From: Candidatus Cloacimonadota bacterium
Lineage (GTDB): Bacteria > Cloacimonadota > Cloacimonadia > Cloacimonadales > Cloacimonadaceae
Assembly: GCA_017995495.1 (NCBI GenBank)
Contig: JAGOIS010000013.1
Span: 1-18,403 of the forward strand
DNA length: 18,403 nt
Direction of reading: 5' to 3'
In this document: positions 2,898 through 18,403 of the stretch, piece by piece
How the letters are laid out: each line of letters begins with the position of its first letter
Numbering within the stretch: the first letter of the stretch is position 1
Program-made: the position numbers and the translations under genes
Notes under the pieces: generated by a model
What the model saw: the letters and a program-made list of their open reading frames with translations, nothing else
The model's database searches: none
What the model was told of the DNA's origin: nothing

Positions 2898-3478
2898 CCA
2901 CCGGCTCCTTTTCCGGATATTATATTCAGCCCCTGCCACAGCTTGCCCCCATATTCCGGAGCCTATTTCCGCCAGCCCTGTTTCCTGTAAAGCTTTGTTT
3001 TAGGCTGGCAAAATCGCTCCTGCCGAGTAAATAGAGCTTTACTGGACATATCCCTACCATATGCCCAAAAAACCTTCGTATTATAGACACGTTATTAGCA
3101 CTTCTCTGGAGTACGTCCTGATAAGTTGAGGCCCGGCGAAACAGACGAAGCAGAGCTTTAGCCTTTGGCCACAAAGTAGCTTTTATGAAAAAGAACTTGA
3201 CTTGGATAAACAAGATGAAAACAATGCAAATGGTCGCTTGGCTTTACATAGATTGTGAGTAACGAGGGAGATCAGATGCCCTCAAACAACCCGAGAAACA
3301 ACGAGATGGAATTTACACCAACATTTGGAACTCAACAAAATAAGGTCCGTTGAGTAAAAAATTTGCATACAAATTAACGCAACCTTACAAATGATGTTAT
3401 CTGTATGAAGTGGTCGTTTTATCCCCTTGGGGTCTAGCCAAAGCGATCGGCTGTTAATCATGCTATGGGAGGTGAACT
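2898..3478. other. Intergenic region, AT-rich from about 2990
   Basis: This stretch of about 580 bases lies between the divergent MFS gene (minus) and the small gene at 3479 (plus). From about 2990 it is visibly richer in A and T than the flanking genes. Apart from the -10-like element near 2919 I see no tRNA, CRISPR or convincing gene. Two tiny plus-strand frames (3185-3262, 24 codons; 3276-3353, 25 codons, the latter after a GGGAG) and a 95-codon minus-strand frame (2926-3213) have no recognisable content and are not called. Confidence 0.6.
2919..2924 (-). promoter_or_regulatory. Possible -10 element for the MFS gene
   Basis: An exact TATAAT on the minus strand sits 21 bases before the MFS ATG, which would give a short leader of roughly 14 bases. 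No good -35 hexamer is found at 16-18 bases spacing, so this is a weak call. Confidence 0.3.
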
Positions 3479-3769
3479 TTGGCCAAACGCTATAGGCAGG
3501 TTGGCAGAAGCTACGGTGGCAAAGTGATCAGTCACCAAGGTAAACTTGTGTTTGAACACATTAACGGGGACACTGTTGTTTTGAGCAAAAATGACGTGGC
3601 CAAAGTAGTTAGGGAGTATAACGAATCTGTTGATGAATATGAGGTCAGGGTATATCTGAAAAATGGAAGTTATCACGTAGCGCATGAACGTTTTGCCACA
3701 GAACTTTTGAACTTCAAACCCGCAACGGAAAGAGGTTTTGAACAGGATGCAGCATCAAATCTTAACTGA
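3479..3769 (+). CDS. Small hypothetical protein, 96 aa
   Basis: I do not recognise the family. The start is TTG: a strong GGGAGG (3467-3472) lies six bases before it, and an in-frame stop (TGA 3473-3475) just upstream rules out a longer form. The product begins MAKRYRQVGRSYGGKVISHQ. It has alternating short hydrophobic and polar stretches that suggest a small, mostly beta fold (VISHQGKLVFEHINGDTVVL, then YEVRVYLKNGSYHVAHERF), with one acidic helix-like segment (KNDVAKVVREYNESVDEYE). There is no signal peptide or membrane segment. Codon use is more AT-rich than in the neighbouring operons, which fits a recent arrival or a poorly constrained accessory gene. A second frame overlaps its last 23 bases (see 3747-3980). 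The two may form a unit ending at the hairpin at 4023. Confidence 0.6.
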   Translation: MAKRYRQVGRSYGGKVISHQGKLVFEHINGDTVVLSKNDVAKVVREYNESVDEYEVRVYLKNGSYHVAHERFATELLNFKPATERGFEQDAASNLN

Positions 3770-3980
3770 GGGCTACCTTGCCACCCCAGATAATGTTGGT
3801 GTTGCTAAGCTGTCAGCCGTCCGTCATACTGAGGGACCCCTTTCAACTTGTATTAAATCGGTGATCATTGAGTACGCAAACTAGACGGATTGCCTCAATG
3901 TCTTAGTCCAATCTATGCGGAATGGCTATCACTACGCAGATGCTCGTGGACAACTAATTGGTTGCATATGTCTTGGGTGA
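3747..3980 (+). pseudogene. Possible small gene interrupted by one TAG codon
   Basis: An ATG at 3747, inside the end of the preceding small gene, opens a frame of 45 codons ending in TAG (3882-3884). The same frame then continues without a stop for another 31 codons to TGA at 3978-3980. The two parts read MQHQILTEGYLATPDNVGV... and TDCLNVLVQSMRNGYHYADA...GQLIGCICLG. The frame ends 42 bases before a terminator-like hairpin, which makes a real second gene of this unit somewhat more likely. I do not recognise the product. It could be a gene broken by a nonsense mutation, a short 45-aa gene, or chance; the region is AT-rich and chance open frames of this size are not rare. Confidence 0.25.
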
Positions 3981-4022
3981 GCTGGGTTCAAGTCAATTAC
4001 AGGCCAACTCCGGAATAGAGCC

Positions 4023-4591: not shown

Positions 4592-5920
4592 ATGAAACCA
4601 TACATCATCACAGGCGGGACAATTCTCACATTCGATCCGGCGAGGCCGGTGATCGAGGGCGAGGCCATCCTGGTGCAGGACGGCAGGATCATTCGGGTGG
4701 CCCCGGACGCTGAACTTTCACTGCTGCATTACGAACGGTTGGACGCCACCGGCAAGATCGTGATGCCGGGCCTGATCAATGCCCATCACCATTTTTACAG
4801 CACTTTGGTGACCGGCCTGGGCAAGGCGGCGCCATCCAAGGACTTCAACGCGGTGCTGGAAAACCTTTGGTGGCGGCTGGACAAGAAGCTTCTGGCGGAT
4901 GACATTCATATCAGCGCCCTGGTTTCCTCGCTTAACGCCATCCGGCATGGCTGCACCACCGTGATCGACCATCACGCCAGCCCCCACGCCATCGGCGGTT
5001 CTTTGGCGCTGATCGCCAAAGCGCTGAAGCAATGCGGGATCCGCGGTTCGCTCTGCTATGAGGTTTCAGACCGGGACGGAGAACAGCGCTGCCAGGAAGG
5101 GATCCAGGAAAACGTGGATTGGCTGATGCGGATGCAGGACGATCCGGAGCCGGATCTGAAGGGACTTTTTGGCATGCACGCGGCTTTCACGCTGAGCGAC
5201 AAGACCTTGGGCCAGATCGCGGACTGGGTGCAAAAAATCGGCTGCGGCACTCATATCCACGCCGCGGAGGCTGAATCGGACGAACTTTACAACATCCAGC
5301 ACTTCGGCAAGCGCGTGGTGGAGAGGCTTTGCGACTTCGGGCTGGTGAATGCCAACAGCATCCTGGCCCACGGAGTGCATCTGAACGCCCGGGAAATGAT
5401 GCTGGTGGCGGATTCCGGCGCCGCGATCGTCACCAATCCGCAATCCAATCTGAACAACGCTGTGGGCATCGCCGACGTCTGCAAGATGGCGGAACTGGGC
5501 ATCACGGTGGGCCTGGGCACGGACGCGATGACGGTGAACATGCTGGAGGAATTGCGGGTGGGGCTCTGGGCCCAGCATCTGAGGCAGCAAAACCCCGGCG
5601 CGGGCTTCATGGAGATCGCCTCCACCCTGCTGCAAAACAATCCCCGCATCGCGCAAAAATACTGGGGTCCGGGGCACGGAGTGATCGCCGACGGCAATCC
5701 GGCGGATCTGGTCTGGGTGGATTACGAGCCCCACACACCCCTGAACGCGGAAACCTGGATCGGGCATGTGATCTACGGCATTTCCCAGGCCAGGGTGGAC
5801 ACCACCATCTGCGCCGGCGAAACGCTGATGTGGAACGGACAGCTGACTCTGGACCTGGATGAAACGGAGGTCCGGATCAAGTCGCGCGAACTGGCAAAGA
5901 ATCTCTGGGACAGGTTTTAA
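4592..5920 (+). CDS. ssnA: SsnA-family aminohydrolase
   Basis: This is a 442-residue member of the metal-dependent amidohydrolase superfamily (ATZ/TRZ and guanine-deaminase-like branch), the same length as E. coli SsnA. The N-terminal beta-sandwich half (IITGGTILTFDP...) leads to the metal site NAHHHFYS (His65, His67). Then come HIHAAEAESD (His223 metal ligand, Glu226 catalytic), LAHGVHL (His260/His263) and GLGTDAM (Asp311). All expected metal and catalytic residues are present, so it should be an active hydrolase. SsnA belongs to the E. coli xdh/yge/ygf region and to gut-bacterial urate/xanthine catabolic clusters. Its exact substrate is not settled; ring opening or deamination of a purine-derived heterocycle is the likely role. 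It is first in the operon, with an AGAGGTGG ribosome-site-like sequence about nine bases before the ATG. Confidence 0.92.
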   Translation: MKPYIITGGTILTFDPARPVIEGEAILVQDGRIIRVAPDAELSLLHYERLDATGKIVMPGLINAHHHFYSTLVTGLGKAAPSKDFNAVLENLWWRLDKKLLADDIHISALVSSLNAIRHGCTTVIDHHASPHAIGGSLALIAKALKQCGIRGSLCYEVSDRDGEQRCQEGIQENVDWLMRMQDDPEPDLKGLFGMHAAFTLSDKTLGQIADWVQKIGCGTHIHAAEAESDELYNIQHFGKRVVERLCDFGLVNANSILAHGVHLNAREMMLVADSGAAIVTNPQSNLNNAVGIADVCKMAELGITVGLGTDAMTVNMLEELRVGLWAQHLRQQNPGAGFMEIASTLLQNNPRIAQKYWGPGHGVIADGNPADLVWVDYEPHTPLNAETWIGHVIYGISQARVDTTICAGETLMWNGQLTLDLDETEVRIKSRELAKNLWDRF

Positions 5921-5930
5921 GGAGCATAAA

Positions 5931-7124
5931 ATGTATCAGACAATACTGGCCAAGGCTAGGGAGTATGAATCCGAAAGCGTGCGTTACCTGCTTGACATGG
6001 TGCGCATTCCGGCTTTTTCCACCAAGGAAAAGGAAGTGGTGGAATACATTCTGGCTGAGATGAAAAAAGCCGGCTTCGATGAGGCTTTCATCGATCCCCT
6101 GGGCAATGTGCTGGGCCGCATCGGCTTTGGAGAGCGGGTGTTGGCTTTCGACGCCCACATCGACACGGTCTATCCCGGCGACCTCAAGCTCTGGGAATTC
6201 GATCCCTTCGACGCCCACGTGAAAGACGGCAAGGTCTGGGGCCGCGGCTCCGTGGACCAGGAAGGGGGCATGGCCTCGATGCTCACCGCCGCGAGGATCA
6301 TCAAAGACCTCGGCCTGAACGACAAATTCAGCATCTGGTTCACCGGCACCGTGATGGAGGAAGACTGCGACGGACTTTGCTGGCAGTACATCATCAATGA
6401 GGACAAGATCGTTCCGGAACTGGTGGTGATCACGGAGCCCACGAACCTGAACATCTATCGCGGCCACCGCGGCCGCATGGAAATGCAGGTGCACGTGAAA
6501 GGCCTTTCCTGCCACGGCTCCGCGCCCGAGCGGGGTGACAACGCCATCTACAAGATCAGCCGCGTGGCCCTGGAGATCGAAAAGCTGCACGAGCGGCTGC
6601 GCTACGACGAGTTTTTGGGCAAGGGAAGTATCTGCGTGACAGAGGTTTACTTCACCGGGCCCTCCCAGTGCGCGGTGCCGGACAGCGCCCGCGTCCATCT
6701 GGACCGCCGCCTCACCTGGGGTGAAACCAAGGACAGCGCTGTCGCGGAGGTGCGCGAGGCTTGCAAGCTGGCCGGAGAGGCAGACGCCGAGATCGAGGTA
6801 CTGACCTACGCAGAAGCCGCCTTCACGGGTTTGGTCTATCCCACGGAAAAGTATTTCCCCACCTGGGTCACCCAGCCCGATTCTCCCTGGCTCAAAGCAG
6901 CGGAAGAGGCGTATCAGGAAACCCTGGGACGTGCCCCGAAAGTGGACAAATGGACCTTTTCCACCAATGGTGTGGCGATCGCGGGAATGCACGGTATTCC
7001 CTGCCTCGGACTGGGGCCGGGCAACGAAGTTTACGCCCACGCGCCCAATGAAGCCACTCCCATCGAGCATCTGACCGAGGCCGCGGCCTTCTACGCGGCT
7101 CTGGTGCATAAACTCAACCAGTGA
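5931..7124 (+). CDS. ygeY: YgeY-type M20 metallohydrolase
   Basis: This is a 397-residue dinuclear zinc hydrolase of the M20/ArgE/DapE family, close in length to E. coli YgeY (403). Metal-site motifs are intact: FDAHIDTV (His76, Asp78), GRGSVDQEGG (Asp109 bridging), VMEEDCDG (Glu143/Glu144: general base and ligand), ITEPT (Glu169) and EVYAHAPNE (His370). The middle section (about 180-290) is the dimerisation lid. YgeY is linked to the breakdown of ureido or amino-acid intermediates next to YgeW and YgeX, but its substrate has not been firmly assigned. The start at 5931 has AAGGAG seven bases upstream, 10 bases after ssnA. A longer frame from 5859 would overlap the end of ssnA and adds only a basic, non-conserved leader. 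It overlaps the next gene by four bases. Confidence 0.92.
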   Translation: MYQTILAKAREYESESVRYLLDMVRIPAFSTKEKEVVEYILAEMKKAGFDEAFIDPLGNVLGRIGFGERVLAFDAHIDTVYPGDLKLWEFDPFDAHVKDGKVWGRGSVDQEGGMASMLTAARIIKDLGLNDKFSIWFTGTVMEEDCDGLCWQYIINEDKIVPELVVITEPTNLNIYRGHRGRMEMQVHVKGLSCHGSAPERGDNAIYKISRVALEIEKLHERLRYDEFLGKGSICVTEVYFTGPSQCAVPDSARVHLDRRLTWGETKDSAVAEVREACKLAGEADAEIEVLTYAEAAFTGLVYPTEKYFPTWVTQPDSPWLKAAEEAYQETLGRAPKVDKWTFSTNGVAIAGMHGIPCLGLGPGNEVYAHAPNEATPIEHLTEAAAFYAALVHKLNQ

Positions 7125-8275
7125 GCCATTTCCAGAACTGGCGCTGCACGGATTGCGGCCGGGAATTTGCCTTGGACGAGGTCCGCTACCTCTGTCCGGA
7201 TTGCGCCAAAGACTACTCGCCGGGGGTGCCACTGCCGGGTGTGCTGGAAGCGAGGTTCGATTATCCCATGCTGCGGGCGGCTTGGGAAAACAAGCCTGAT
7301 CCAAAGCTGTTCAGCGTGCTCGGGCCAGAGTATTATCCGCCTCTGCCTGTGGGCAACACACCGCTGTTCAGGGTTCACCGCCTGGCCACCGCGCTCAAGC
7401 TGCAAAACCTTTACATCAAGAACGACAGCCTGAATCCCAGCGGCTCCTTCAAAGACCGGGCCTCAGAACTTGTGGTGGCGGACGCCATCCGCCTGGGGAT
7501 GGAGGAAATTGTCTGCGCCTCCACCGGCAACGCAGCCTCCTCGTTGGCTTGCCTCTGCGCCGCGGCCGGGAAAAAAGCTGTGATCTTCGTGCCTGCCAAA
7601 GCTCCAGCCGCGAAGCTTGCCCAGATCCGGATCCACGGAGCTGAACTGCACAGCGTGGCAGGCACTTACGACGATGCCTTCGCCGCCGCGCTGGATTATT
7701 CCGCCAGCCACAACTGTTTGAACCGCAATACAGCCTACAACCCTCTCACCATCGAAGGGAAAAAGAGCTCCGGACTGGAGATATACCTCCAACTGGGCGC
7801 GGTGCCGGACTGGATCGTGATCCCGGTGGGTGATGGCGTGATCCTGGCCGGGATCCACAAGGCCTTCGTGGATCTGCTGCGGGCTGGGATCATCACCAGA
7901 TTGCCTCGCCTGTTGGCGGTGCAGGCCGATAGCTCTGACACCATCACATCATATTGGGAGAGCGGGATTTACCATTATGCCGCCCATCCTCTTACCGTGG
8001 CGGATTCGATCTCTGTGACCACACCTTCCAACGCCCATGGGGCCGTTCGCGCCCTCCGGGAAACTGGTGGCGCCGCGGTCCGGGTGAGCGACGTCCAGAT
8101 CCTGCAGGCACAAAAAGAGCTTGCCAGGCAGACCGGGATATTCGCTGAACCGTCTTCCGCGGCGGTGCTTGCGGGTTTGCTCAAAGCCATCCAACAAGGC
8201 CTTGCCGGACCCAACGACAAGGTGGTGCTGCTCATCACCGGACACGGATTGAAGGACATCAATGCCGTCGGTTGA
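7121..8275 (+). CDS. Threonine-synthase-like PLP enzyme with zinc ribbon
   Basis: This is a 384-residue fold-type-II PLP enzyme. An N-terminal zinc ribbon (Cys9-x-x-Cys12 and Cys25-x-x-Cys28) precedes the catalytic part, as in one branch of threonine synthases. The PLP lysine is Lys111 in NPSGSFKDRA; the cofactor-ring segment is STGNAASS (about 134-141), and the glycine loop reads IPVGDGVILAG. The GTG start overlaps the ygeY stop as GTGA, and an in-frame TAA (7109-7111) excludes a longer form. A housekeeping threonine synthase would normally sit with hom/thrB. Here it is embedded between ygeY and a hydantoinase, so it more likely acts in the catabolic pathway, for example as a beta-replacement or ammonia-lyase enzyme on a diaminopropionate-like or hydroxy amino acid. 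That role is inference; the family call is firm. Confidence 0.85.
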   Translation: MSHFQNWRCTDCGREFALDEVRYLCPDCAKDYSPGVPLPGVLEARFDYPMLRAAWENKPDPKLFSVLGPEYYPPLPVGNTPLFRVHRLATALKLQNLYIKNDSLNPSGSFKDRASELVVADAIRLGMEEIVCASTGNAASSLACLCAAAGKKAVIFVPAKAPAAKLAQIRIHGAELHSVAGTYDDAFAAALDYSASHNCLNRNTAYNPLTIEGKKSSGLEIYLQLGAVPDWIVIPVGDGVILAGIHKAFVDLLRAGIITRLPRLLAVQADSSDTITSYWESGIYHYAAHPLTVADSISVTTPSNAHGAVRALRETGGAAVRVSDVQILQAQKELARQTGIFAEPSSAAVLAGLLKAIQQGLAGPNDKVVLLITGHGLKDINAVG

Positions 8276-9290
8276 ACTCTTTCCCGGGATCTGCGATTTC
8301 CACGTTCACGTGGGGGAAAAGATCGGTGGTTACGAGCTCCGCGACGATTTTTCCGCTCTGGACAAGCTTGCCCGAAGGCAGGGTTTGAGAGCCATTGGCG
8401 CTTTCGTGACGGAAGAGGAGGGACTTTCCCTCCCCGAAAAGCTCAGGCGCATGCAAGATGACGCGCGGCAACATTTTGAGGGCTTTGTCCACTGGCATCT
8501 GACCCCTGTATCCGCCTCAGTCGAAGACATCCACCCGCTGTTGGAGGAAGGCTGCGACCTCAAGTTTTACACCACCTACAAGCAGGCAGGCATCTACAAG
8601 TCCTACAAGGAAATAGGCCGGTGGATCGAAGACCTGTCCCAGCTCAAGACCCGCATCCTGTTGCACTGCGAAGACGATTCCGTGATTGCCCAAGCCAGTG
8701 CCGCCCATTACTTCAAAACAGCCATGAACCACACTCTGAGGCGTCCGGAACTGGCTGAAACCATCGCCGTGGAGAGGGTTCTGGACCTGGCTGTGCGGTA
8801 CGACCATCCAATTCACATCGTGCATGTTTCCACCCCCGGCGCGGCCCTGCTGATCGCCGAGGCCAAACAGCACAATCCGGGCATCACCTGCGAGACCGCG
8901 CCGCACTACCTGCTTTACAATGCTGACCTGCTAAAAGGTCCGCAGGGACACCGCTGGCTCTGCACGCCGCCGCTGCGAAGCGAGGAATCCCGCGGCCTGC
9001 TGGTGGAACTGTTGCAGGAAGGGGTTTTCGATATCATTGCCAGCGACCACTGTGCGTTCAATCCGGAGGATAAGGACCGGTTCAAAACTGATCCGGCCAG
9101 GGTCCCCTGCGGGTTGGAAGGGCTGCAATCTCTCTTTCCGTCGCTGTTTGAACGCTTGGTGGAGCCTGGAAGCATCAGCCTGGAAGCCCTGGTTCGCTTG
9201 TGCTGTCAGCGTCCGGCCGAATTGATGGGAGTGGCAAATCCGCCGCGATATACTTTGAACCAACTTTTGGGAAGGGAAAAACATGGATAA
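8262..9290 (+). CDS. Dihydroorotase/hydantoinase-family cyclic amidohydrolase
   Basis: This is a 342-residue amidohydrolase with a full binuclear site: DFHVHV (His14, His16), LKFYTTY (Lys101, the expected carboxylated bridging lysine), LLHCEDD (His135), IVHVSTPG (His188) and ASDHCAF (Asp262). ETAPHYLLYN and VPCGLEGLQSLFP are typical of hydantoinases, dihydropyrimidinases and dihydroorotases, which hydrolyse cyclic ureides. It is much shorter than E. coli HyuA (461), because it lacks the N-terminal beta-sandwich strands and the C-terminal extension. The first metal motif lies only 14 residues from the start. The ATG lies 14 bases inside the preceding gene, with GAAGGA about six bases upstream. 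By position it is the counterpart of HyuA in purine clusters; pyrimidine synthesis is unlikely because no pyr genes are near. Substrate unknown. Confidence 0.85.
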   Translation: MPSVELFPGICDFHVHVGEKIGGYELRDDFSALDKLARRQGLRAIGAFVTEEEGLSLPEKLRRMQDDARQHFEGFVHWHLTPVSASVEDIHPLLEEGCDLKFYTTYKQAGIYKSYKEIGRWIEDLSQLKTRILLHCEDDSVIAQASAAHYFKTAMNHTLRRPELAETIAVERVLDLAVRYDHPIHIVHVSTPGAALLIAEAKQHNPGITCETAPHYLLYNADLLKGPQGHRWLCTPPLRSEESRGLLVELLQEGVFDIIASDHCAFNPEDKDRFKTDPARVPCGLEGLQSLFPSLFERLVEPGSISLEALVRLCCQRPAELMGVANPPRYTLNQLLGREKHG

Positions 9291-11520
9291 ACCAGCATTT
9301 CGCAACGACTCCCGGGCCAAGGTGACCGGCCGGGCGCGCTATACAGATGATCTGCAGCTGCCGGGCATGCTGTACGCCGTACCGGTTCACAGCCAGCTTC
9401 CGCGGGCCAAACTTGTTTCAATTGATGCCGGCGAAGTCCTGAAGCAGACAGGCGTGGTGGCGGTTTTCACCGCCCGGGACATTCCTGGAAACCAGCGCTT
9501 CGGCCAGATCATCAAAGACTATCCCACCCTGGCCGGAGAAGACATCAATTCCACCGGAGACGTACTGGCCCTGATCGTGGCTACCACCCGCGATCAGGCG
9601 ATCGACGCCATTCCCTTTGTGAAGGTGGAACTGGAGCCGTGCCCGCCAATCCTTGACCCGGAGAAAGCTCTCCAACCAGAGGCGGAGATCCTGCATCCCT
9701 TACATGGCTCAAACATCGCCAACCACCACAGGGTCCGGCGTGGAGACGTGCCCGCCGCTGAGAAGGGCGCGGATTTCATTATTGAAGAGGAATTCTCCAC
9801 CCAACGGGTCGAGCACGCCTATCTGGAGCCGGAAAGTTCTGTCTGCCAATTGCGGCCGGACGGGGTGATGGAAGTTTTCGGCAGCATGCAGCATCCTTTC
9901 TCCACCCGGCGGTTCGTGGCCTCCACCCTGGGCTTGGAACTCAAGGATGTGGAGGTGCGCACGATACCGATGGGAGGAGGTTTTGGCGGCAAAGACGACA
10001 CCGCGGCGCTGGTCTGCGCCCGGGCGGCGCTCTGCGCCTGGCATCTCAAGCGTCCGGTCAAGCTCACTTACACCCGCGAATGGAGCCTGCGGGAAAGCTA
10101 TAAACGCCATCCCTACAAGCTGCAGTACCGCATGGGGCTCAGCCGGGACGGCCTGATCAAATCCGTGAATGTGCGGATGGTAGCTGACGGTGGCGCCTAT
10201 TGCAGCGTAACTCCTTGGGTAACTTGGCGTTCCACGGTGCAATGCTGTGGCTGCTACGAAGTGCCGAACGTCCACTGCGACGTCTACGGGGTCTATACTA
10301 ACAACGTTTTCAGCGGCGCCATGCGCGGTTTCGGCTCGCCGCAGGTGAATTTCTCCATCGAGCAGTTGGTGGAGATCGCGGCAGCCAAATGCGGGCTGGA
10401 TGAAATTGAATTTCGCCGCCGCAACATGGTGAAACAGGGCTCCACCACGGTCACCGGCCAAGTACTGGACACCCATGTGGTATCACTGGGCCAGGTTCTG
10501 GATACGGTGCTGAATGAGATCGATTATGAGCGCAAGCGCCAAAACTGCAGCTTTGGTGACGCCGCCAAAGACGAATGGTACGGCATCGGCCTGGCTCTCA
10601 GCTATCGCGGCATGAGCCTCGGCGCGGAAGGCACGGACGTGAATTCCGCCATCATCAACGTGCAGCCGGACGGCTCGGTGTTGATCGAAACCGGCATCCA
10701 CGAAAATGGCCAGGGCTCTGAATCGGCCATGATCCTTTTGGTTTCACAAGAACTGGGACTCCCACCGGAGCGGATCCGCTATCGCCTGCCCTCCACCGCG
10801 AACATACCGGATGGCGGTACCACCGTCGCCTCACGCGGCACCATCATGGGCGGGGGAGCAACGGTCAATGCCTGCAAGATATTGAAAGATATGATCATGG
10901 ATGCCATGAAACAGATCCGGGGACTGGATGTGACGGGGTTTGGCGAGCAGAATCTCCTGGATGCCGGGGGCAAGGTTTTGATATCATGGAACGAGGCTAT
11001 CAAGCTGTGTTTTAATAATCAGATCTATCCCCACGCCTTTGGCGTGTATAAAGCGCCGCGGGTGGACTGGGACGAAGCCACCGGGCAGGGTAATGCTTAT
11101 TTCACATGGGTTTATGGCTGCCAAGCGGTGGAACTTAAAGTAGATCCAACCACCAAAGCCGTCACGCTATTGAATATGGTGGCCGCCCACGACGTTGGCA
11201 AGGCCGTCAACCCCGCTCTGGTTAAAGGCCAGGTCTTCGGCGGTATGGCCATGGCGACAGGTTACGCGCTATTTGAGGATTGCGCCTGCGAAAACGGCAT
11301 GCCCAAGCCCACCAACCTGCACAACTACCGTCTGGCCCGCAGCACCGACCTGCCGGAGATGACCGCCATCATCGTGGAAAACCCCGACCCCACCTCACCT
11401 TCCGGCGCCAAGGGCATCGGCGAACCCACCAATGAACTGCTGGCTCCGGCCATCGCCAACGCTGTGTATCGTGCAACAGGGCAGCGATTTAACCATCTTC
11501 CCATAAGGATAAAACCATGA
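9283..11520 (+). CDS. xdhA: Xanthine dehydrogenase-type molybdenum-binding subunit
   Basis: This is a 745-residue large subunit of a xanthine oxidase-family hydroxylase, close to E. coli XdhA (752). An a/b hammerhead domain (KVTGRARYTDDLQLPGML onward, about 10-120) is followed by two molybdenum-cofactor domains. Key segments are EHAYLEPE (177-184), GGGFGGK (231-237), AMRGFGSPQ (346-354, including the Arg that orients purine substrates in xanthine dehydrogenases), NGQGSESAM and GAKGIGEP near the C-terminus, whose Glu714 is the expected catalytic base. It would hydroxylate a purine or similar N-heterocycle. The ATG lies 8 bases inside the previous gene, after a GGGAAGGG. The [2Fe-2S] subunit follows with a four-base overlap. 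No FAD subunit is in the window, so the electron acceptor is unclear. Other hydroxylases (nicotinate, CO dehydrogenase-like) share the fold; context favours purine. Confidence 0.9.
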   Translation: MDKPAFRNDSRAKVTGRARYTDDLQLPGMLYAVPVHSQLPRAKLVSIDAGEVLKQTGVVAVFTARDIPGNQRFGQIIKDYPTLAGEDINSTGDVLALIVATTRDQAIDAIPFVKVELEPCPPILDPEKALQPEAEILHPLHGSNIANHHRVRRGDVPAAEKGADFIIEEEFSTQRVEHAYLEPESSVCQLRPDGVMEVFGSMQHPFSTRRFVASTLGLELKDVEVRTIPMGGGFGGKDDTAALVCARAALCAWHLKRPVKLTYTREWSLRESYKRHPYKLQYRMGLSRDGLIKSVNVRMVADGGAYCSVTPWVTWRSTVQCCGCYEVPNVHCDVYGVYTNNVFSGAMRGFGSPQVNFSIEQLVEIAAAKCGLDEIEFRRRNMVKQGSTTVTGQVLDTHVVSLGQVLDTVLNEIDYERKRQNCSFGDAAKDEWYGIGLALSYRGMSLGAEGTDVNSAIINVQPDGSVLIETGIHENGQGSESAMILLVSQELGLPPERIRYRLPSTANIPDGGTTVASRGTIMGGGATVNACKILKDMIMDAMKQIRGLDVTGFGEQNLLDAGGKVLISWNEAIKLCFNNQIYPHAFGVYKAPRVDWDEATGQGNAYFTWVYGCQAVELKVDPTTKAVTLLNMVAAHDVGKAVNPALVKGQVFGGMAMATGYALFEDCACENGMPKPTNLHNYRLARSTDLPEMTAIIVENPDPTSPSGAKGIGEPTNELLAPAIANAVYRATGQRFNHLPIRIKP

Positions 11521-11978
11521 TCAGGGTTAACGGTATTGAATTCCGAGATTATGATCCCGATACCAAGCTCTCCGCCTGGCTGCGCGAAGAACTGGACCTC
11601 ACCGGAACCAAGGTCGGCTGCGACATCGGCGTCTGCGGTTCCTGCACCGTGCTGGTGAACGGCGAGCCCAAGCGTTCCTGCAAGCTGAAGCTGCAAGATG
11701 TTGAAGGCGCGGAAATCCTAACCATAGAAGGAGTTGCGTCCCCGGATGGCAGCTTGCACCCCATCCAGCAGGCCTTCATCGACGCCGGCGCGATCCAGTG
11801 CGGTTTTTGCACCCCCGGAATGGTTTTGGCATCCCACGCCCTGCTGGCCAAAAATCCCCATCCTTCCCGGGTTGAGGTGCGCCAGGCCCTGAAGGGAAAT
11901 CTCTGCCGCTGCACCGGCTACCAGCAGATCATCGACGCCGTGCTGAGAGCCGCAGAGGTCATGAGTCAAAATCCATAA
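11517..11978 (+). CDS. xdhC: Xanthine dehydrogenase-type 2x[2Fe-2S] subunit
   Basis: This 153-residue small subunit resembles E. coli XdhC (159). The N-terminal plant-ferredoxin-type cluster is bound by Cys35, Cys40, Cys43 and Cys55 (GCDIGVCGSC, then C twelve residues on). The second cluster, in the helical C-terminal domain, is bound by Cys95/Cys98 (QCGFCTPGM) and Cys130/Cys132 (NLCRCTGYQ). All eight cysteines are present. It passes electrons from the molybdenum site of the partner subunit to FAD or another acceptor. The ATG overlaps the xdhA stop (ATGA), so the two are translated together. The order here is Mo subunit then Fe-S subunit, without the FAD subunit that lies between them in E. 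coli xdhABC. Confidence 0.94.
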   Translation: MIRVNGIEFRDYDPDTKLSAWLREELDLTGTKVGCDIGVCGSCTVLVNGEPKRSCKLKLQDVEGAEILTIEGVASPDGSLHPIQQAFIDAGAIQCGFCTPGMVLASHALLAKNPHPSRVEVRQALKGNLCRCTGYQQIIDAVLRAAEVMSQNP

Positions 11979-11999
11979 CTAATTAACACAGAGGATATT

Positions 12000-13172
12000 A
12001 TGCATAACACCCAAGCCATTCAAAGCCGCCTTGATGAACTTGCCAGCCTAAGCCCCAACCGCTTTGGCCAAGACTTTCTGCTCACCTGGGATAACAGCCA
12101 GGACAACCTAAAGGCCGTGATGTTGGTGGCGGAGATCCTCCAACTCCTGCACCAGGAAAAGAAGCCCTGGCGCATTTTCGACTATGGCCTGGCCATCTCC
12201 ATTTTTCGCGACAACAGCACCCGCACCCGCTTCAGTTTTGCCTCCGCGGTGAACGGCTTGGGCTTGGCGCTCTCAGAACTCGACGAGGTGAAATCCCAAA
12301 TCGCCCACGGAGAGACTGTGCGTGAAACGGCGGCCATGATCTCCTTTTTGACCGAAGTGATCGGCATCCGGGACGACATGTATCCCGGAGAGGGGCACTC
12401 CTACATGCTGGAAGTCGCTGATGCCGTTACGGAAAGCCATCAGCAGGGCGTTCTGGCCCAGCGTCCCACCCTCGTGAACCTGCAGTGCGATCTCGACCAT
12501 CCCACCCAGAGCCTGGCTGACCTGCTGAAACTCAAAGACTATTTCGGCGGACTGGAGAACCTGAAAGGCAAAAAGATCGCCATGAGTTGGGCCTATTCTC
12601 CCTCCTACGGCAAACCCCTTTCCGTGCCCCAGGGCGTGATCAACCTCATGAGCCGCTTTGGCATGGACGTGGTGCTGGCCCATCCCGAAGGCTACGACCT
12701 GCTTCCGGAAACTGTCACTTCAGCCCAAAAATTCGCCGGCCAAAGCGGAGGCTCCTTCCGGATCACACACGACATGGACGAAGCTTTCAAGGAAGCGGAT
12801 GTGGTCTATCCCAAATCATGGGCACCGATGACCGTGATGCAGGAGCGCACCCGACTGCTCAAACAGGGCGACCGCGAAGGATTGAAAGCCCTGGAGCAGC
12901 AATGCCTGGCCGAAAATGCCCGCCACGCGGACTGGGAATGCACTGAAGGCAGGATGAAGCTCACCCGCGGAGGCAACGCCCTGTATGAACACTGCCTTCC
13001 CGCCGACATCTCAGGCGTGAGCTGTGAACAGGGGGAGGTGGCCAAATCCGTGTTTGAGCGCTATCGCCTGCACACCTACCAGGAAGCCGGTTACAAGCCC
13101 TTCGTCATCGCCGCCATGATCTTCACGGCCAAGGTGCAAAGCCTCGCTGATAAACTAAAGACATTTCTGTAA
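12000..13172 (+). CDS. ygeW: YgeW knotted carbamoyltransferase
   Basis: This 390-residue protein belongs to the aspartate/ornithine carbamoyltransferase superfamily and matches E. coli YgeW (396) in length and features. The carbamoyl-phosphate loop is FRDNSTRTRF (Ser73-Thr74-Arg75-Thr76); DHPTQSLADL (about 166-175) and EHCLPAD (331-336) are the other signature sites. The insertion around WAYSPSYGKPLSVPQG and the long C-terminal part fit the knotted branch. Structural work on the E. coli protein described a knotted catabolic transcarbamylase with an unknown substrate. In purine clusters it is expected to split an ureido compound with phosphate to give carbamoyl phosphate, which carbamate kinase turns into ATP; no carbamate kinase is seen here. 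It starts 21 bases after xdhC with GAGG just upstream. Confidence 0.92.
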   Translation: MHNTQAIQSRLDELASLSPNRFGQDFLLTWDNSQDNLKAVMLVAEILQLLHQEKKPWRIFDYGLAISIFRDNSTRTRFSFASAVNGLGLALSELDEVKSQIAHGETVRETAAMISFLTEVIGIRDDMYPGEGHSYMLEVADAVTESHQQGVLAQRPTLVNLQCDLDHPTQSLADLLKLKDYFGGLENLKGKKIAMSWAYSPSYGKPLSVPQGVINLMSRFGMDVVLAHPEGYDLLPETVTSAQKFAGQSGGSFRITHDMDEAFKEADVVYPKSWAPMTVMQERTRLLKQGDREGLKALEQQCLAENARHADWECTEGRMKLTRGGNALYEHCLPADISGVSCEQGEVAKSVFERYRLHTYQEAGYKPFVIAAMIFTAKVQSLADKLKTFL

Positions 13173-13180
13173 CACAGGGG

Positions 13181-13253
13181 CACAGAGACACAGAGAAATG
13201 GAAAGAAGAGAATCTTGATTATTGATGACTTCTGCCTTCTTTGCTGCTCTGTG
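13181..13253. repeat. Imperfect hairpin of CACAGAG type in the only operon gap
   Basis: CACAGAG occurs twice at the left (13181-13187 and 13189-13195) and its complement CTCTGTG at the right (13247-13253). Comparing 13181-13197 with the complement of 13237-13253 gives 13 matches in 17, and weaker pairing continues inward. No T-run follows. The repetitive CACAGAGACACAGAGA type of text is common in dispersed intergenic elements of environmental bacteria. It occupies the sole sizeable gap (137 bases) between ygeW and the next gene and could process or attenuate the transcript. Confidence 0.5.
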
Positions 13254-13309
13254 GTAAAATATTCTCTGCTATCTATTATTATATTAATGAATCCAAGGAG
13301 TAAATGATA

Positions 13310-14761
13310 ATGCCCAAACTGATAACCCACAAGAATCCAGACATCATCAAGAAAAACGCCCGCCGTTGCAAAGAGCGCGGCATCATCCTGCCCACCATCC
13401 GTCAGCAGATGTTTCCCGAGACCATCCCGGACGCGATCAAACAGAAACTCCAGCCCATTGGACAGGGTGACGTTAACCCCCTCAACCTCTTCCGCATCAC
13501 CTGGAAAAACAACATCGAAACTGGACTCTTCGGCCCGCCTGATTATTTTGAGATACCCTCTTCAGTCACTGGCGTTAGAGCCAGGATCATTGGTCTGGTG
13601 GGAAAACACTTCCCCACCGGGGCCCACAAGGTTGGAGCGGCCTATGGTTGCCTGGCGCCGCGCCTGTCCAGCGGTGAGTTTGACCCGGAATTCGACAAAG
13701 CCGTCTGGCCCTCCACCGGAAATTACTGCCGCGGGGGAGCTTTCGACTGCGCGCTGCTGGCCTGCACAGCCATCGCCATCCTGCCCGAGGAGATGAGCCA
13801 GGAACGCTTCGACTGGCTGCGCGAGATCGGCGCCGAGGTGATCGCTACCCCCGGCTGCGAATCCAACGTGAAGGAGATCTTTGACAAATGCCACGAACTG
13901 CGTGCCGACCCCCACAATTTCACATTCAACCAGTTTGAAGAATTCGGCAATCCCTTCTGGCACTACCAGGTAACCGGCAACGCCATCGCCGAGGTTTGGG
14001 ACTTGGTGAAAAAACCAACCAGCAGATTGAGCGGCTTTGTAAGCTCCACAGGCAGCGCGGGAACGATCGCCGCGGGGGATTTTCTCAAGACGCGCTTTCC
14101 CCTGATGAAAACCACCGCCGCCGAAGCCTTGGAATGCCCCACCCTGCTCAACAACGGCTTTGGCGGACACCGCATCGAAGGCATCGGCGACAAACATGTG
14201 CCCTGGGTGCACAATGTGCGCAACACAGATGCCGTGGCCGCCATCCGCGATGAAGACTGCATGAGGCTGCTGCGGCTCTTCAACGAACCTGCGGGCCAGG
14301 AATTCCTGATGCGGGAAAGGATCCCCGAAAAGGTGATCAAAGACCTGCCCCTGCTGGGAATTTCCTCGATCGGCAACCTACTGGCCTGCATCAAACAAGC
14401 CAAGTATTTTGAGTACACCGAAGATGACGTCATCTTCACCATCTTCACCGATTCGGCGGAGCTCTACCTTTCCCGGATCGCGGAACAACAAGCGCTCAAG
14501 GGCGAATACACTTCACTGCAGGCCGCGTTGGACCGCGAGGCCGCCCTCAACTGCCAGCAAACGGACAACTTCCTGGAACTGACCTACGAACAGAGAAAAC
14601 GCGTCCACAACCTCAAATATTACACTTGGGTGGAGCAACAGGGCAAAACCTACGCAGAGATCCTGCGCCAGTGGGACGACCCGGATTACTGGATGGAAAC
14701 CTTTGAGCGCAACCTCGACGAATTGGACCAGACCATCGAAGAATTCAATGCCCTGCTCTGA
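13310..14761 (+). CDS. PLP-dependent fold-type-II enzyme (ammonia-lyase/cysteine-synthase-like)
   Basis: This 483-residue enzyme of the tryptophan-synthase-beta fold is clearly longer than the usual 300-400. The PLP lysine is Lys107 in FPTGAHKVGAAYG; the ring-binding loop is WPSTGNYCRGGAFDC (about 134-148) and the phosphate-binding glycine loop is SSTGSAGTIAAG (about 245-256). An N-terminal extension of about 90 residues precedes the core, and a charged helical C-terminus (LTYEQRKRVHNLKYYTWVEQ) follows. It is not a close match to E. coli YgeX (diaminopropionate ammonia-lyase, 398 aa), but occupies the place beside ygeW where YgeX would be expected. I infer an amino-acid lyase or beta-elimination role. 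Two ATGs, 13304 and 13310, are in frame. AAGGAG (13295-13300) is three bases from the first and nine from the second, so I chose the second. Confidence 0.8.
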   Translation: MPKLITHKNPDIIKKNARRCKERGIILPTIRQQMFPETIPDAIKQKLQPIGQGDVNPLNLFRITWKNNIETGLFGPPDYFEIPSSVTGVRARIIGLVGKHFPTGAHKVGAAYGCLAPRLSSGEFDPEFDKAVWPSTGNYCRGGAFDCALLACTAIAILPEEMSQERFDWLREIGAEVIATPGCESNVKEIFDKCHELRADPHNFTFNQFEEFGNPFWHYQVTGNAIAEVWDLVKKPTSRLSGFVSSTGSAGTIAAGDFLKTRFPLMKTTAAEALECPTLLNNGFGGHRIEGIGDKHVPWVHNVRNTDAVAAIRDEDCMRLLRLFNEPAGQEFLMRERIPEKVIKDLPLLGISSIGNLLACIKQAKYFEYTEDDVIFTIFTDSAELYLSRIAEQQALKGEYTSLQAALDREAALNCQQTDNFLELTYEQRKRVHNLKYYTWVEQQGKTYAEILRQWDDPDYWMETFERNLDELDQTIEEFNALL

Positions 14762-15266
14762 GATCATCGCCGTGATCCTGGCCTCGGGCCAGGGCAGAAG
14801 GTTTGGCGGACCGAAGGTGGATGCCCGCGCCGGCAGCCAAACCTTTGCCGAGCATATTGTTGCCACCCTGAAACAGGCTGGGATCGACCGCATCCACATC
14901 GCCCGGGACCTGCAAACCCCGGACATGCTGGCCACCCTCAAAGTGGCGCTGAGCGAAGCCCGCGATCCACAAACGAAGGCCTGCCTGGTTTTTCCGGTGG
15001 ACCATCCTTTTGTGAAACCAGACACCGTGCGCAGCCTCTGCTCCGCCTGGCAGAAAATGCCTGAGGCAGTATTCCGCCCGGTCTGCCAAGGACGGCCGGG
15101 GCATCCTGTGCTGATCCCGCTGTGGCTGGACCTCGACGCCGACGACCAGGGCCGCGGCCTGGCCGGGATCATCCGCTCCCAGGCTTGCAGCGTGATCGAC
15201 ATCCCGGTGGAGGACGGGGCCATTCTGCGCAACGTCAACTTTCCCAAAGATCTGCGGGAGGAATGA
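14748..15266 (+). CDS. mocA: Molybdenum cofactor cytidylyltransferase (MocA/YgfJ family)
   Basis: This 172-residue nucleotidyltransferase is a little shorter than E. coli MocA (about 190). It has the nucleotide-binding loop VILASGQGRRFGGPK (about 9-23), the metal-binding region FPVDHPFVKPDT (82-93) and the MocA hallmark CQGRPGHPVLIP (113-124). MocA attaches CMP to molybdopterin to give the cytosine dinucleotide form used by xanthine-oxidase-family enzymes. It therefore very probably serves the XdhA-type subunit in the same operon. The ATG lies 14 bases inside the previous gene with only a weak ribosome site, which implies translational coupling. An upstream TTG at 14703 would add 15 residues with no conserved content. 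Its stop overlaps the next start as TGATG. Confidence 0.88.
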   Translation: MPCSEIIAVILASGQGRRFGGPKVDARAGSQTFAEHIVATLKQAGIDRIHIARDLQTPDMLATLKVALSEARDPQTKACLVFPVDHPFVKPDTVRSLCSAWQKMPEAVFRPVCQGRPGHPVLIPLWLDLDADDQGRGLAGIIRSQACSVIDIPVEDGAILRNVNFPKDLREE

Positions 15267-15829
15267 TGGAATTCCTGGATCTGGTCGCCAGCCGTCACAG
15301 CGTGCGGGATTTCCTGCCCGATCCCATTCCGGAGGATGTTTTGCGGGAGATCCTGGAAGCCGGCCGCCTCGCTCCGTCAGCCCAAAACCGCCAGCCCTGG
15401 CGCTACGTGGTTCTGTCTGATAACGGGCAGGTGAAAAAACTGGCCCTCAACTGCGGCCTGATAGGCCTTTCCAACATCTTCATCCGCAGCGCCCCCTGCC
15501 TGATCGTGGCCTGCGCCGACGCCGGCAAAAACGTGCGGATCAACCACAAGGACTACTATCTGGTGGATACAGCCATCTCTTTGCAACAGATGGTTTTGGC
15601 CGCCTGGAACCGCGGCATCGGCAGTTGCTGGTTGGCCGCCTTCAGCGAAAAAGCTGTAAAAAAATACCTGAGGCTGCCAGCCAAATGGCAGGTGGTGGCC
15701 CTGCTGCCCCTGGGTTATCCGGCGGAGAAAAAAACCATGTACACCAAAGCTTTAAGCACGTTCCCACGCAGCCAGGATCGTCTGCCCTTGGAAAAAATAG
15801 TCACCTATTTTGACAAGGATGATATGTGA
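15266..15829 (+). CDS. Nitroreductase-family FMN oxidoreductase
   Basis: This 187-residue NADH/NADPH-dependent flavoprotein begins MEFLDLVASRHSVRDFLPDPIP, with the family signature (R-x-S-V-R-x-F) for FMN phosphate binding. Then come EAGRLAPSAQNRQPWRYVVL and the C-terminal GIGSCWLAAF...PLGYPAEKK blocks. These enzymes usually form homodimers in the cytosol and reduce nitro compounds, quinones or other conjugated acceptors; the physiological substrate is not predictable. It is coupled to mocA by a one-base overlap. GGAGG (15257-15261) favours the second of two adjacent ATGs (15266) over the first (15263). In a cluster whose hydroxylase lacks an FAD subunit, it could supply or drain electrons, but that is speculation. 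A four-base overlap links it to the DUF3795 fragment. Confidence 0.88.
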   Translation: MEFLDLVASRHSVRDFLPDPIPEDVLREILEAGRLAPSAQNRQPWRYVVLSDNGQVKKLALNCGLIGLSNIFIRSAPCLIVACADAGKNVRINHKDYYLVDTAISLQQMVLAAWNRGIGSCWLAAFSEKAVKKYLRLPAKWQVVALLPLGYPAEKKTMYTKALSTFPRSQDRLPLEKIVTYFDKDDM

Positions 15830-16701: not shown

Positions 16702-18403
16702 TCAACCCTCGGTGAGCTTTTTATACTGGAAGTATCTGTCCTTGAAGAATTCCTGGGCCTCGCCCTGGAACTTCTCGGAGCGGTCCGGGAAGATCCGCTG
16801 CAGGGCGGAATAGCGGGTTTCGCCTTGGAGGAATTCCTGCACGGGCAGGCTGGGTTCCTTGCTGTCCAGGGTGAGGGGGTGTTTGCCCTGCGCCGCGTTG
16901 AGCGGATTGTAGCGGTAGAGCAGCCAGTAGCCTGTATCCACGGCTGTTTTCTGGCGTTTCTGGGCCAGGGACATATCGATGCCGTGGTTGATGCAGGGCG
17001 CGTAGGCGATCACGATCGAGGGTCCGGGATAGGCTTCGGCCTCGAGGATGGCGTTCATGGCCTGGGCTTTGTTCGCGCCCATGGCGATGGCGGCCACATA
17101 GACGTAGCCGTAGCTCATCATCATCATGCCCAGGTCCTTCTTGTTGGTGTTTTTGCCGGCCTCGGCGAAGCGGGCGATGGAGCCCAGGGGCGTGGCTTTG
17201 GAGGCCTGTCCGCCGGTGTTGGAATAGACCTCGGTGTCCAGCACGAAGATGTTCACGTTCTGGTTTGAGGCCATCACGTGATCGAGTCCGCCGAAGCCGA
17301 TGTCGTAAGCCCATCCGTCACCGCCGATCGCCCACACGGAGCGCTCCACCAGGTAATCCTGCAATTCCTTCACCTTTTCCAGCAGGGGTTTGCAGCCTTC
17401 GCAGGCCTTCCCAATCGCGGCGGGCAGCAGGGTTCTGATCTTGTCCGCGTTGTCCTTGGCGGCGGCATCCACGTCCGCCCAGTGTTCCAGCGCGTAGCCG
17501 AAAGCTTCTTTCAGGGCGGGGTCGATGGCTTTTTCCCGCAGCTGTTCCAGATAAAAACGCAGCAGCTTGCGGTGGGAATTCACGGCCAGACGCATGCCGA
17601 AGCCATATTCGGCGTTGTCCTCAAAGAGGCTGTTCGCCCAGGCGGGTCCTTTACCATCCTTGTTTTTGGCGTAGGGGATGGTGGGGAAGGTGCCGCCCCA
17701 GATGGAGGAGCAGCCGGTGGCGTTGGCAATTATCATGCGGTCGCCGAACAGCTGGGTTAGCAGCTTGATGTAGGGCGTTTCGCCGCAGCCGGCGCAGGCG
17801 CCGGAGAATTCCAGCAGGGGCTGTTTGAATTGGGAGCCCTTTACGTTGTTTTCCTTGAAGGTGGCCAGCACGTCGGAGGGAAGGGCGTCGAAATATTCAT
17901 AGTTGGCCTGTTCGCCGGCGGCACGCTCATCCTCGATGGGGCGCATTTCCAGAGCGGTTTTGGGGCACTCGTTCACGCAAACGCGGCAGCTCTGGCAGTC
18001 GTCGATGTAAACCTGCACCTTGTATTGATAACCTTCGGCGCCGGTGGCCTTGAGGGTTTTGAAGCTGGCGGGTTTGTCCCCGAGGTCTTCATCCTTGATC
18101 AGTTTGGCGCGGATGGCGGCGTGGGGGCAAACGAAAGAGCACTGGTTGCACTGGATGCAGTTTTCCGGGATCCAATGCGGCACGGCCGGCGCCACCCGGC
18201 GTTTTTCCAGCCTGGCGGTCCCGCTGGGCGCGTAACCATCCAGGGGCATCTGGGAAACCTTTATCTGGTCGCCCTTTTCGCGCATGATCGGTTCGATCAC
18301 GCCAGTGGTGAACCCATCCGAGCCGTCCGGCACCAGTTTCTTTTGGGGAGTGCATTTATCCGGGCTGGCAGCCGGGATGGGGATTTCTGCCAGGGCTTCA
18401 TTA
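16702..18403 (-). CDS. nifJ: Pyruvate:ferredoxin oxidoreductase, C-terminal part
   Basis: About 566 residues of an enzyme usually near 1,170-1,200 are present; the reading frame runs off the right edge. The enzyme oxidises pyruvate with CoA to acetyl-CoA and CO2, reducing ferredoxin. Two [4Fe-4S] ferredoxin motifs are seen: CIQCNQCSFVCP near 18159-18124 and CQSCRVCVNECP near 17997-17962. The proximal-cluster cysteines follow (GACAGCGET near 17797, ATGCSS, and APCINHGID near the end). The thiamine-diphosphate site is GGDGWAYDIG (near 17325) and YSNTGGQ (near 17226). A further CEGC pair (around residue 334 of the fragment) is not one of the usual ligands. A GTG at 18333 could be mistaken for the start, but the frame continues upstream with family-typical sequence. 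A terminator follows the stop. Confidence 0.95.
   Translation of the reverse strand, partial: NEALAEIPIPAASPDKCTPQKKLVPDGSDGFTTGVIEPIMREKGDQIKVSQMPLDGYAPSGTARLEKRRVAPAVPHWIPENCIQCNQCSFVCPHAAIRAKLIKDEDLGDKPASFKTLKATGAEGYQYKVQVYIDDCQSCRVCVNECPKTALEMRPIEDERAAGEQANYEYFDALPSDVLATFKENNVKGSQFKQPLLEFSGACAGCGETPYIKLLTQLFGDRMIIANATGCSSIWGGTFPTIPYAKNKDGKGPAWANSLFEDNAEYGFGMRLAVNSHRKLLRFYLEQLREKAIDPALKEAFGYALEHWADVDAAAKDNADKIRTLLPAAIGKACEGCKPLLEKVKELQDYLVERSVWAIGGDGWAYDIGFGGLDHVMASNQNVNIFVLDTEVYSNTGGQASKATPLGSIARFAEAGKNTNKKDLGMMMMSYGYVYVAAIAMGANKAQAMNAILEAEAYPGPSIVIAYAPCINHGIDMSLAQKRQKTAVDTGYWLLYRYNPLNAAQGKHPLTLDSKEPSLPVQEFLQGETRYSALQRIFPDRSEKFQGEAQEFFKDRYFQYKKLTEG

Follow-up and report, generated by a model that had tools for sequence, protein, structure and literature searches.

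The stretch of DNA analyzed here, referred to below as the window, is one whole contig of 18,403 bases from an assembly of an uncultured anaerobe (1.49 Mb in 194 contigs, 71% complete), which we infer to represent the genus Candidatus Syntrophosphaera (family Cloacimonadaceae, phylum Cloacimonadota). Its forward strand carries a real and conserved ten-gene operon that is most likely a rebuilt member of the reductive urate pathway. We propose, with a probability of roughly 0.7, that it encodes the ring-opening and downstream half of this anaerobic uric acid pathway and a pair of pyridoxal phosphate (PLP) enzymes of its own. The initial annotation, made from the letters alone, had described ten intact genes on one strand at 4592–15829, and open reading frame (ORF) and profile checks recovered them all on the + strand. 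The genes are real, but three begin later than the longer ORF starts given for them (~5931 for ygeY, 14748 for mocA, 15263 for the nitroreductase gene). Adjacent genes overlap by 4–14 bases or are separated by 10–21 bases; only the gap from ygeW to the long PLP gene is wider (131 bases). The features are as follows, with lengths in amino acids (aa).

4592..5920, +, ssnA-like aminohydrolase, 442 aa (NF005540, 495 bits, cut-off 444)
5931..7124, +, ygeY hydrolase (M20), ~397 aa (NF009555, 546.7 bits, cut-off 321)
7121..8275, +, threonine-synthase-like PLP enzyme, 384 aa (TIGR00260, 196.5 bits, cut-off 167.1)
8262..9290, +, short hydantoinase, catalytic barrel only, 342 aa (TIGR02033, 157.9 bits, cut-off 393.25)
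9283..11520, +, xdhA-like molybdopterin subunit, 745 aa (PF02738, PF20256, PF01315)
11517..11978, +, xdhC-like 2Fe-2S subunit, 153 aa (PF01799, PF00111)
12000..13172, +, ygeW carbamoyltransferase, 390 aa (NF005538, 636.3 bits, cut-off 453; TIGR03316, 617.1 bits, cut-off 500)
13304..14761, +, long PLP enzyme with a cysteine-synthase-type fold, 485 aa
14748..15266, +, mocA/mobA-like nucleotidyltransferase (molybdenum cofactor), 172 aa (PF12804, 84.9 bits, longer ORF scanned)
15263..15829, +, nitroreductase-family flavoprotein, 188 aa (PF00881, 113.8 bits, longer ORF scanned)
16702..18403, −, pyruvate:ferredoxin oxidoreductase, 3' part, cut by the contig end (TIGR02176, 740.3 bits, profile 607–1166 of 1167)

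Relation to the reductive uric acid pathway

As set out in the main text of Li et al. 2025 (PMC12507026), XdhD-YgfM takes urate to yanthine, dearomatization is carried out by YgfK (UacX in C. difficile), SsnA opens the ring, HyuA opens the hydantoin, YgeW or UacY together with YgeY removes the two ureido groups and YgeX turns diaminopropionate into pyruvate. That main text does not mention Cloacimonadota and marks YgeX through the Pfam domain PF00291, which also matches both PLP enzymes of the window. The relevant passages of Percudani 2025 (PMC12990295) report that two studies disagree on which ureido group leaves first, and list the stereochemistry of the ureido intermediates and the electron donor of XdhAC as questions still open.

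By sequence, the window YgeW and YgeY are clear orthologs of their counterparts in the reductive uric acid pathway of E. coli (64% and 56% identity; XdhC, 49%), so that the lower route would be common to the E. coli pathway, whereas SsnA, the hydantoinase and XdhA are divergent. SsnA, YgeW and YgeY, three of the families expected in a reductive uric acid cluster, all score above curated cut-offs, SsnA falling slightly below that of a second model (TIGR03314, 453.8 against 455.5 bits). These family matches bear out the earlier description of the operon as a YgeW-YgeY-SsnA-Xdh purine system put together in another way. The same description had called the route complete, which did not hold: the operon contains no dearomatizing reductase gene. 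YgeX, YgfK and carbamate kinase, listed there as absent, are indeed not in the operon, and YgeX is unmatched in the family, but a carbamate kinase is encoded on another contig of the genome (G000:C161:3601–4398; 331.6 bits over model positions 47–308 of 309, below the cut-off of 358.25 because the gene is cut at a contig end). As the window is a single contig of an incomplete genome, apparent gene absences are partly a contig effect.

Conservation of the gene order

YgeW is present in 48 of 124 phylum genomes, 45 of them above cut-off, and gene order was compared over 41 loci, comprising the window and stretches from 40 of the other 47 YgeW-positive genomes. The eight-gene core ssnA-ygeY-threonine-synthase-like-hydantoinase-xdhA-xdhC-ygeW-long PLP is intact on one strand in 18 of the 41 loci (15 of the 18 from the same family), and the full ten-gene order, with mocA and the nitroreductase gene, in 13. 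Among the loci lacking an intact core, several end at contig ends and others hold split or rearranged clusters, the array being divided between two places in G045 and G046. In several loci of other phylum families these genes stand in a different order, and YgfK, XdhB or carbamate kinase joins them. The operon is also found in Candidatus Syntrophosphaera thermopropionivorans (NZ_SMOG01000001.1), and its threonine-synthase-like protein and the one encoded by the same-genus genome G026 are identical. A near-match occurs outside the phylum in a record of candidate division LCP-89 (L151), which reads UacX-like, ssnA, ygeY, threonine-synthase-like, xdhA, xdhC, ygeW, long PLP; no hydantoinase match was found within that locus.

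The initial annotation had considered that this order might prove common and already assigned to another pathway. Common it is, within the family, but searches of the open-access literature (most papers as listed entries, subscription papers outside the scope) brought up no such assignment and no description of this operon variant. Threonine synthase, cysteine synthase and pyridoxal are not mentioned in the retrieved portions of PMC2276186 and PMC6615313, and those of PMC13219045 and PMC11129491 do not describe the variant either. The nitroreductase was considered as the dearomatizing enzyme and set aside; its gene was not seen in L037, L047, L036, L056 and L072, which keep the rest of the genes.

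The dearomatizing reductase

YgfK scores over its cut-off in 38 of the 124 phylum genomes, and five fragments bring the number counted as present to 43, a figure that leaves aside further fragments in G085 and G109. In the 49 family genomes YgfK never passes its cut-off, the only matches there being partial ones to the shared oxidoreductase region. Directly upstream of ssnA in two genomes of other families, G080 (L036) and G050 (L072), lies the gene of a UacX-like protein of 818–820 aa with the domains Fer4_20, Pyr_redox_2, DHO_dh and Fer4, a layout that the text of Li et al. 2025 (PMC12507026) gives for animal PydA. Its C-terminal half has relatives in 42 of the 124 genomes, or 41 after a match in G059 is dropped. 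On these counts (UacX-like 41, YgfK 43), no genome of the phylum carries both.

Within the family, UacX-like genes occur in 28 of 32 YgeW-positive genomes and in 5 of 17 YgeW-negative ones, those five also carrying the threonine-synthase-like gene; no UacX-like gene was found in the 12 family genomes without pathway markers. The missing YgfK was at one point taken as loss of the step, a reading we rejected, since a UacX-like reductase is present elsewhere in relatives. We infer that this reductase would replace YgfK in the relatives of the window genome. In G045 (L105) its gene follows xdhC/B and xdhD and is divergent from ssnA; over 18 family stretches around UacX-like genes, xdhD adjoins in 3 (genus g9) and not in the other 15. 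Separate genes matching the NAD-binding and dehydrogenase halves of the protein stand beside the long PLP gene in L147 (Ignavibacteriota), a pair that is possibly a split form of it.

The two PLP enzymes

Neither PLP enzyme of the operon gave anything beyond a short weak match to E. coli YgeX. YgeX had no match at 1e-30 in the window genome or in any of the 49 family genomes, and none of the 124 phylum genomes exceeds its cut-off of 532 bits; matches of 280–521 bits, several of them slightly below that value, occur in seven. Across the phylum the long PLP gene is present in 85 genomes, the threonine-synthase-like gene in 92 (93 before G084, a 33% match, was left out) and both in 81. In the family, the threonine-synthase-like gene is found in 32 of 32 YgeW-positive against 5 of 17 YgeW-negative genomes, and the long PLP gene in 31 of 32 against 1 of 17.

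A pattern scan of GTDB contigs for the long PLP enzyme gave at least 80 loci, two of those listed being from Cloacimonadota. Partner genes were counted in the 80 listed loci by tblastn; ORFs picked by length masked genes behind longer antisense ORFs. Another pathway gene or the threonine-synthase-like gene is held by 59 of the 80 (42 of the 56 loci of at least 12 kb), the partners being the threonine-synthase-like gene (35), SsnA (29), a carbamoyltransferase (27), YgfK-like (26, a count that takes in partial and PreT-like matches), YgeY (21), hydantoinase (16), carbamate kinase (11) and UacX-like (4). The PLP pair recurs in purine clusters of several phyla.

Forty genomes outside the phylum were hand-picked for partner genes among the listed loci, all of them found through the long PLP enzyme; 35 have the threonine-synthase-like gene (at least 379 bits, next matches at most 265) and 8 a YgeX match, one of these over cut-off. 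YgeX is matched in four of the five genomes without the threonine-synthase-like gene (G141, G147, G161, G162) against 4 of the 35 with it (Fisher p 0.0035, a value that overstates independence because the genomes are related), and G150, a 1.3-Mb genome, has neither. Outside Cloacimonadota the threonine-synthase-like enzyme thus mostly alternates with YgeX. The long PLP enzyme tracks the pathway with either lyase, and in L194 and L220 its gene adjoins that of a YgeX-like protein.

Fourteen long-PLP loci of at least 12 kb contain no partner. The threonine-synthase-like gene was found elsewhere in 10 of their 13 searchable genomes (357–460 bits), and in nine of the ten its neighborhood includes carbamate kinase, YgeW, YgeY, a different carbamoyltransferase, SsnA or YgfK, the carbamate kinase matches of six genomes being only 33–34% identical. 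Nine long-PLP neighborhoods outside purine clusters (with rodA-type, tRNA nucleotidyltransferase and methylenetetrahydrofolate reductase genes among the neighbors) gave no functional clue.

The threonine-synthase-like protein scores 235 bits for PRK08197, below its cut-off of 303, and does not reach the score of the cysteate synthase family model. The cluster copies form a clade apart from paralogs in a tree from which one of 67 cluster copies was omitted by length, and in which 10 of the 12 paralog genomes also include their own cluster copy. The motif NS..NPxR presumably contains the residues that hold the substrate phosphate, as in the Thermus threonine synthase structure. All four bacterial threonine synthases of known structure in the alignment have its arginine, as do 10 of 14 paralogs, against 0 of 67 cluster copies (62 T, 5 M/L/C). 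We consider this protein to be probably a second type of diaminopropionate lyase that replaces YgeX.

For the long PLP enzyme, the best family score was TIGR01136 at 106.9 bits, far from the cut-off of 344.15, so that the cysteine synthase score was not reached. It probably carries out an extra, undescribed step of the pathway. We also considered it as the YgeX replacement, which is less likely because it is kept alongside YgeX-like proteins in L194 and L220. In a tree from which seven rows from short loci were omitted, the long PLP enzyme of the window family groups with those of Acidobacteriota, Ignavibacteriota and LCP-89 and is set off from the majority of the remaining Cloacimonadota rows; gene transfer is likely.

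Xanthine dehydrogenases, hydantoinase and carbamoyltransferases

Every one of the 17 tested genomes that carry the cluster (G055 and 16 family members) has at least two molybdenum-hydroxylase large subunits, whereas this holds for 0 of 7 family genomes that lack it. The window xdhA reaches no NCBIfam cut-off, and its genome (G000) encodes two further large subunits, of which the C167 copy reaches 792 of the 849.5 bits required by TIGR02965. Our guess is that this second xanthine dehydrogenase (XDH) oxidizes xanthine with NAD and that the window XdhA-XdhC, which has no gene for a flavin adenine dinucleotide (FAD) subunit in the operon, is the urate reductase, like XdhAC of C. sporogenes, described as a urate reductase in the passages of Percudani 2025 (PMC12990295) on that enzyme. 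Residue Glu606 of XdhD was dropped as a marker of yanthine formation, its alignment column falling within an overly gapped region. A third XDH gene set stands beside FdrA-like and arylformamidase-like genes in L231 (window genome, C101), L238, L246, L247, L248 and L249, and possibly serves another heterocycle or an oxamate route; the FdrA-like gene, scanned in L231 only, scored 366 bits (cut-off 433).

Complete hydantoinases of the family are 320–371 aa long, against 431 in G045, 435–462 in other families and 461 in E. coli. In an 11-sequence alignment, five short hydantoinases, the window's among them, have lost the N-terminal sandwich segment and almost the whole of the C-terminal one but keep the HxH, Lys, His, His and Asp positions, which we take to be metal ligands. 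The sandwich domain has mostly been lost within the family and is retained in G045 and the other families.

In other Cloacimonadota families, seven YgfK clusters (L094, L097, L098, L099, L100, L101 and L102) hold two divergent carbamoyltransferases, 27–33% identical to YgeW, beside carbamate kinase. These stretches, some of which stop at contig ends, contain no close YgeW and no YgeY match; both carbamoyl groups might be recovered there as carbamoyl phosphate. In L095 and L096 the carbamoyltransferases number three, and YgeY is present.

Proposed reactions and alternatives

Drawing on the observed gene content and order, the orthology of YgeW and YgeY, the co-occurrence of the genes and the near-exclusion of YgfK and UacX-like genes, we propose a scheme whose reactions are all predicted from sequence. 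A molybdenum hydroxylase, either the window XdhA-XdhC or the second XDH encoded elsewhere, would reduce urate to yanthine, and the UacX-like flavoenzyme, also encoded elsewhere, would dearomatize it. SsnA would open the first ring of dihydro-yanthine and the short hydantoinase the hydantoin. YgeW may then pass one carbamoyl group to phosphate, yielding ATP through carbamate kinase, while YgeY would remove the second. In YgeX's place, the threonine-synthase-like enzyme would deaminate 2,3-diaminopropionate to pyruvate. The long PLP enzyme may act on a beta-substituted alanine (albizziin, its isomer, or diaminopropionate), by elimination or racemization.

A wider claim, to which we give somewhat less than even odds, is that many reductive-urate bacteria of several phyla use this different lower end, with a new diaminopropionate lyase derived from threonine synthase and a long PLP enzyme acting on ureido-alanine, for example by beta-elimination or epimerization of albizziin; the published scheme would then be only one of two end-games.

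Several observations weigh against these proposals. Apart from the selection and relatedness of the outside-phylum genomes mentioned above, five of the seven phylum genomes with a YgeX match also carry the threonine-synthase-like gene, which makes the alternation weak inside Cloacimonadota, and 3 of the 13 genomes with an unlinked long PLP gene have no threonine-synthase-like gene. The exclusion between UacX-like and YgfK depends on dropping one weak match, that of G059 (30% identity, 102.5 bits, YgfK present); if it is kept, one genome has both. No UacX-like match turned up in the genome of the window itself (71% complete), in G025 (83%), or in G004 and G007, which are 97% complete and YgeW-positive. 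Three of the upper enzymes are also far from their E. coli counterparts (SsnA 33.6%, hydantoinase 28% and XdhA 29% identity).

The two PLP enzymes could instead divide D- and L-diaminopropionate between them, or one could be a racemase that feeds the other, which we regard as rather unlikely. Fold matches to the threonine-synthase-like model include serine racemases, and the protein has Thr and Asn at the positions of YgeX Asp120 and Asp189, which we take to be catalytic. A split by isomer would also touch the question of ureido stereochemistry raised by Percudani 2025 (PMC12990295), and the main text of Li et al. 2025 (PMC12507026) reports that E. coli YgeX accepts both isomers. The long PLP enzyme, however, also occurs alongside YgeX-like proteins, whatever stereospecificity these may have.

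Another substrate had been suggested by the initial annotation on the grounds of the missing genes. The absence of YgfK requires none, since UacX-like is encoded in most YgeW-positive family genomes (28 of 32), but the 28–34% identity of SsnA, hydantoinase and XdhA, against 64% for YgeW and 56% for YgeY, leaves room for one. These enzymes would then handle some other purine or hydantoin, with 2,3-diureidopropionate as the point at which it joins the same lower pathway, and the loss of the hydantoinase sandwich domain in much of the family would fit. We nevertheless think this unlikely: SsnA is still above the NF005540 cut-off, the same enzyme types co-occur with a UacX-like reductase and a second XDH, and YgfK and UacX-like are rarely in one genome, as expected for alternative solutions to one step.

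It is more doubtful still that the two PLP enzymes have swapped roles, with the long enzyme as the diaminopropionate lyase and the threonine-synthase-like enzyme making threonine or some other product. The long enzyme is retained beside YgeX-like in L194 and L220, the substrate-phosphate arginine is missing from every cluster copy of the threonine-synthase-like protein, and 12 cluster-less family genomes lack its gene. Finally, a reductive pyrimidine (uracil) pathway with UacX-like as an ordinary dihydropyrimidine dehydrogenase is highly improbable: the UacX-like domain set is that of this enzyme, PreA is matched by its C-terminal half at 193.9 bits (NF006183, cut-off 335) and the hydantoinase resembles dihydropyrimidinase, but YgeW, YgeY and SsnA are urate-pathway genes, XDH genes co-occur, and beta-ureidopropionase was not seen in family scans, which covered the window only.

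Surroundings of the operon

The pyruvate:ferredoxin oxidoreductase gene is convergent with the operon and lies outside it; upstream, on the opposite strand, are plsX and a major facilitator superfamily (MFS) transporter gene. Between the divergent MFS gene and ssnA, positions 3001–4000 have a low GC content (43%, against 53–61% in the other 1-kb blocks). The small ORFs scanned in this block have no family match and it has no Rfam RNA; it may be the control region of the operon. A promoter scan of the window gave 14 sites (5.7 expected), terminator-like sites numbered 9 (16.8 expected), and an Rfam scan of the whole window found nothing at gathering scores.

Significance and comparison with known systems

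It was only in 2025 that the reductive urate pathway was published. If the replacement proposed here is true, annotation that looks only for YgeX, YgfK or the PALP Pfam domain overlooks or misreads urate breakers in Bacteroidota, Ignavibacteriota, Acidobacteriota, Chloroflexota, Elusimicrobiota and Cloacimonadota. Direct tests become possible for two enzyme families to which current models or sources would give the names threonine synthase and cysteine synthase, and the long PLP enzyme may expose a step that bears on the albizziin question.

With the E. coli pathway (XdhD-YgfM, YgfK, SsnA, HyuA, YgeW, YqeA, YgeY and YgeX) the window genome shares the SsnA, YgeY and YgeW families, a molybdenum hydroxylase, a hydantoinase and a carbamate kinase. 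It differs in having no YgfK over cut-off and no YgeX, in its short hydantoinase and two other PLP enzymes, in the lack of an XDH FAD subunit gene in the operon and in the position of carbamate kinase outside it. The Chloroflexota SsnA clusters are proposed in the main text of Li et al. 2025 (PMC12507026) to use an F420-type reductase. Five Anaerolineae/Chloroflexi loci of our set (L173, L196, L211, L216, L221) combine the long PLP and threonine-synthase-like genes with carbamate kinase and a carbamoyltransferase, and no UacX-like or YgfK match was found in these loci.

The threonine-synthase-like protein resembles threonine synthase in its fold, in the position of the PLP lysine and in passing the TIGR00260 cut-off, but the NS..R motif is replaced and the gene is located in purine clusters. 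Over residues ~40–410 the long PLP enzyme has the fold of O-acetylserine sulfhydrylase and cystathionine beta-synthase, from which it differs by additional N- and C-terminal segments.

The closest parallel for the reductase is the UacX/UacY version of C. difficile as given in the main text of Li et al. 2025, in which a relative of dihydroorotate and dihydropyrimidine dehydrogenases likewise takes the position of YgfK; the Cloacimonadota reductase differs in being fused to an FAD/NAD domain, YgeW is retained and there is no YgeX. The uncharacterized dehydrogenase X1 is a similar case: the passages of Barba et al. 2013 (PMC4016543) on it describe a dihydropyrimidine dehydrogenase relative linked with ygeW, ygeY, ssnA, hyuA and XDH genes, so the association of such an enzyme with this gene set was already known. 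The pathway itself is likewise already known, and what is new is a variant with two testable PLP enzymes.

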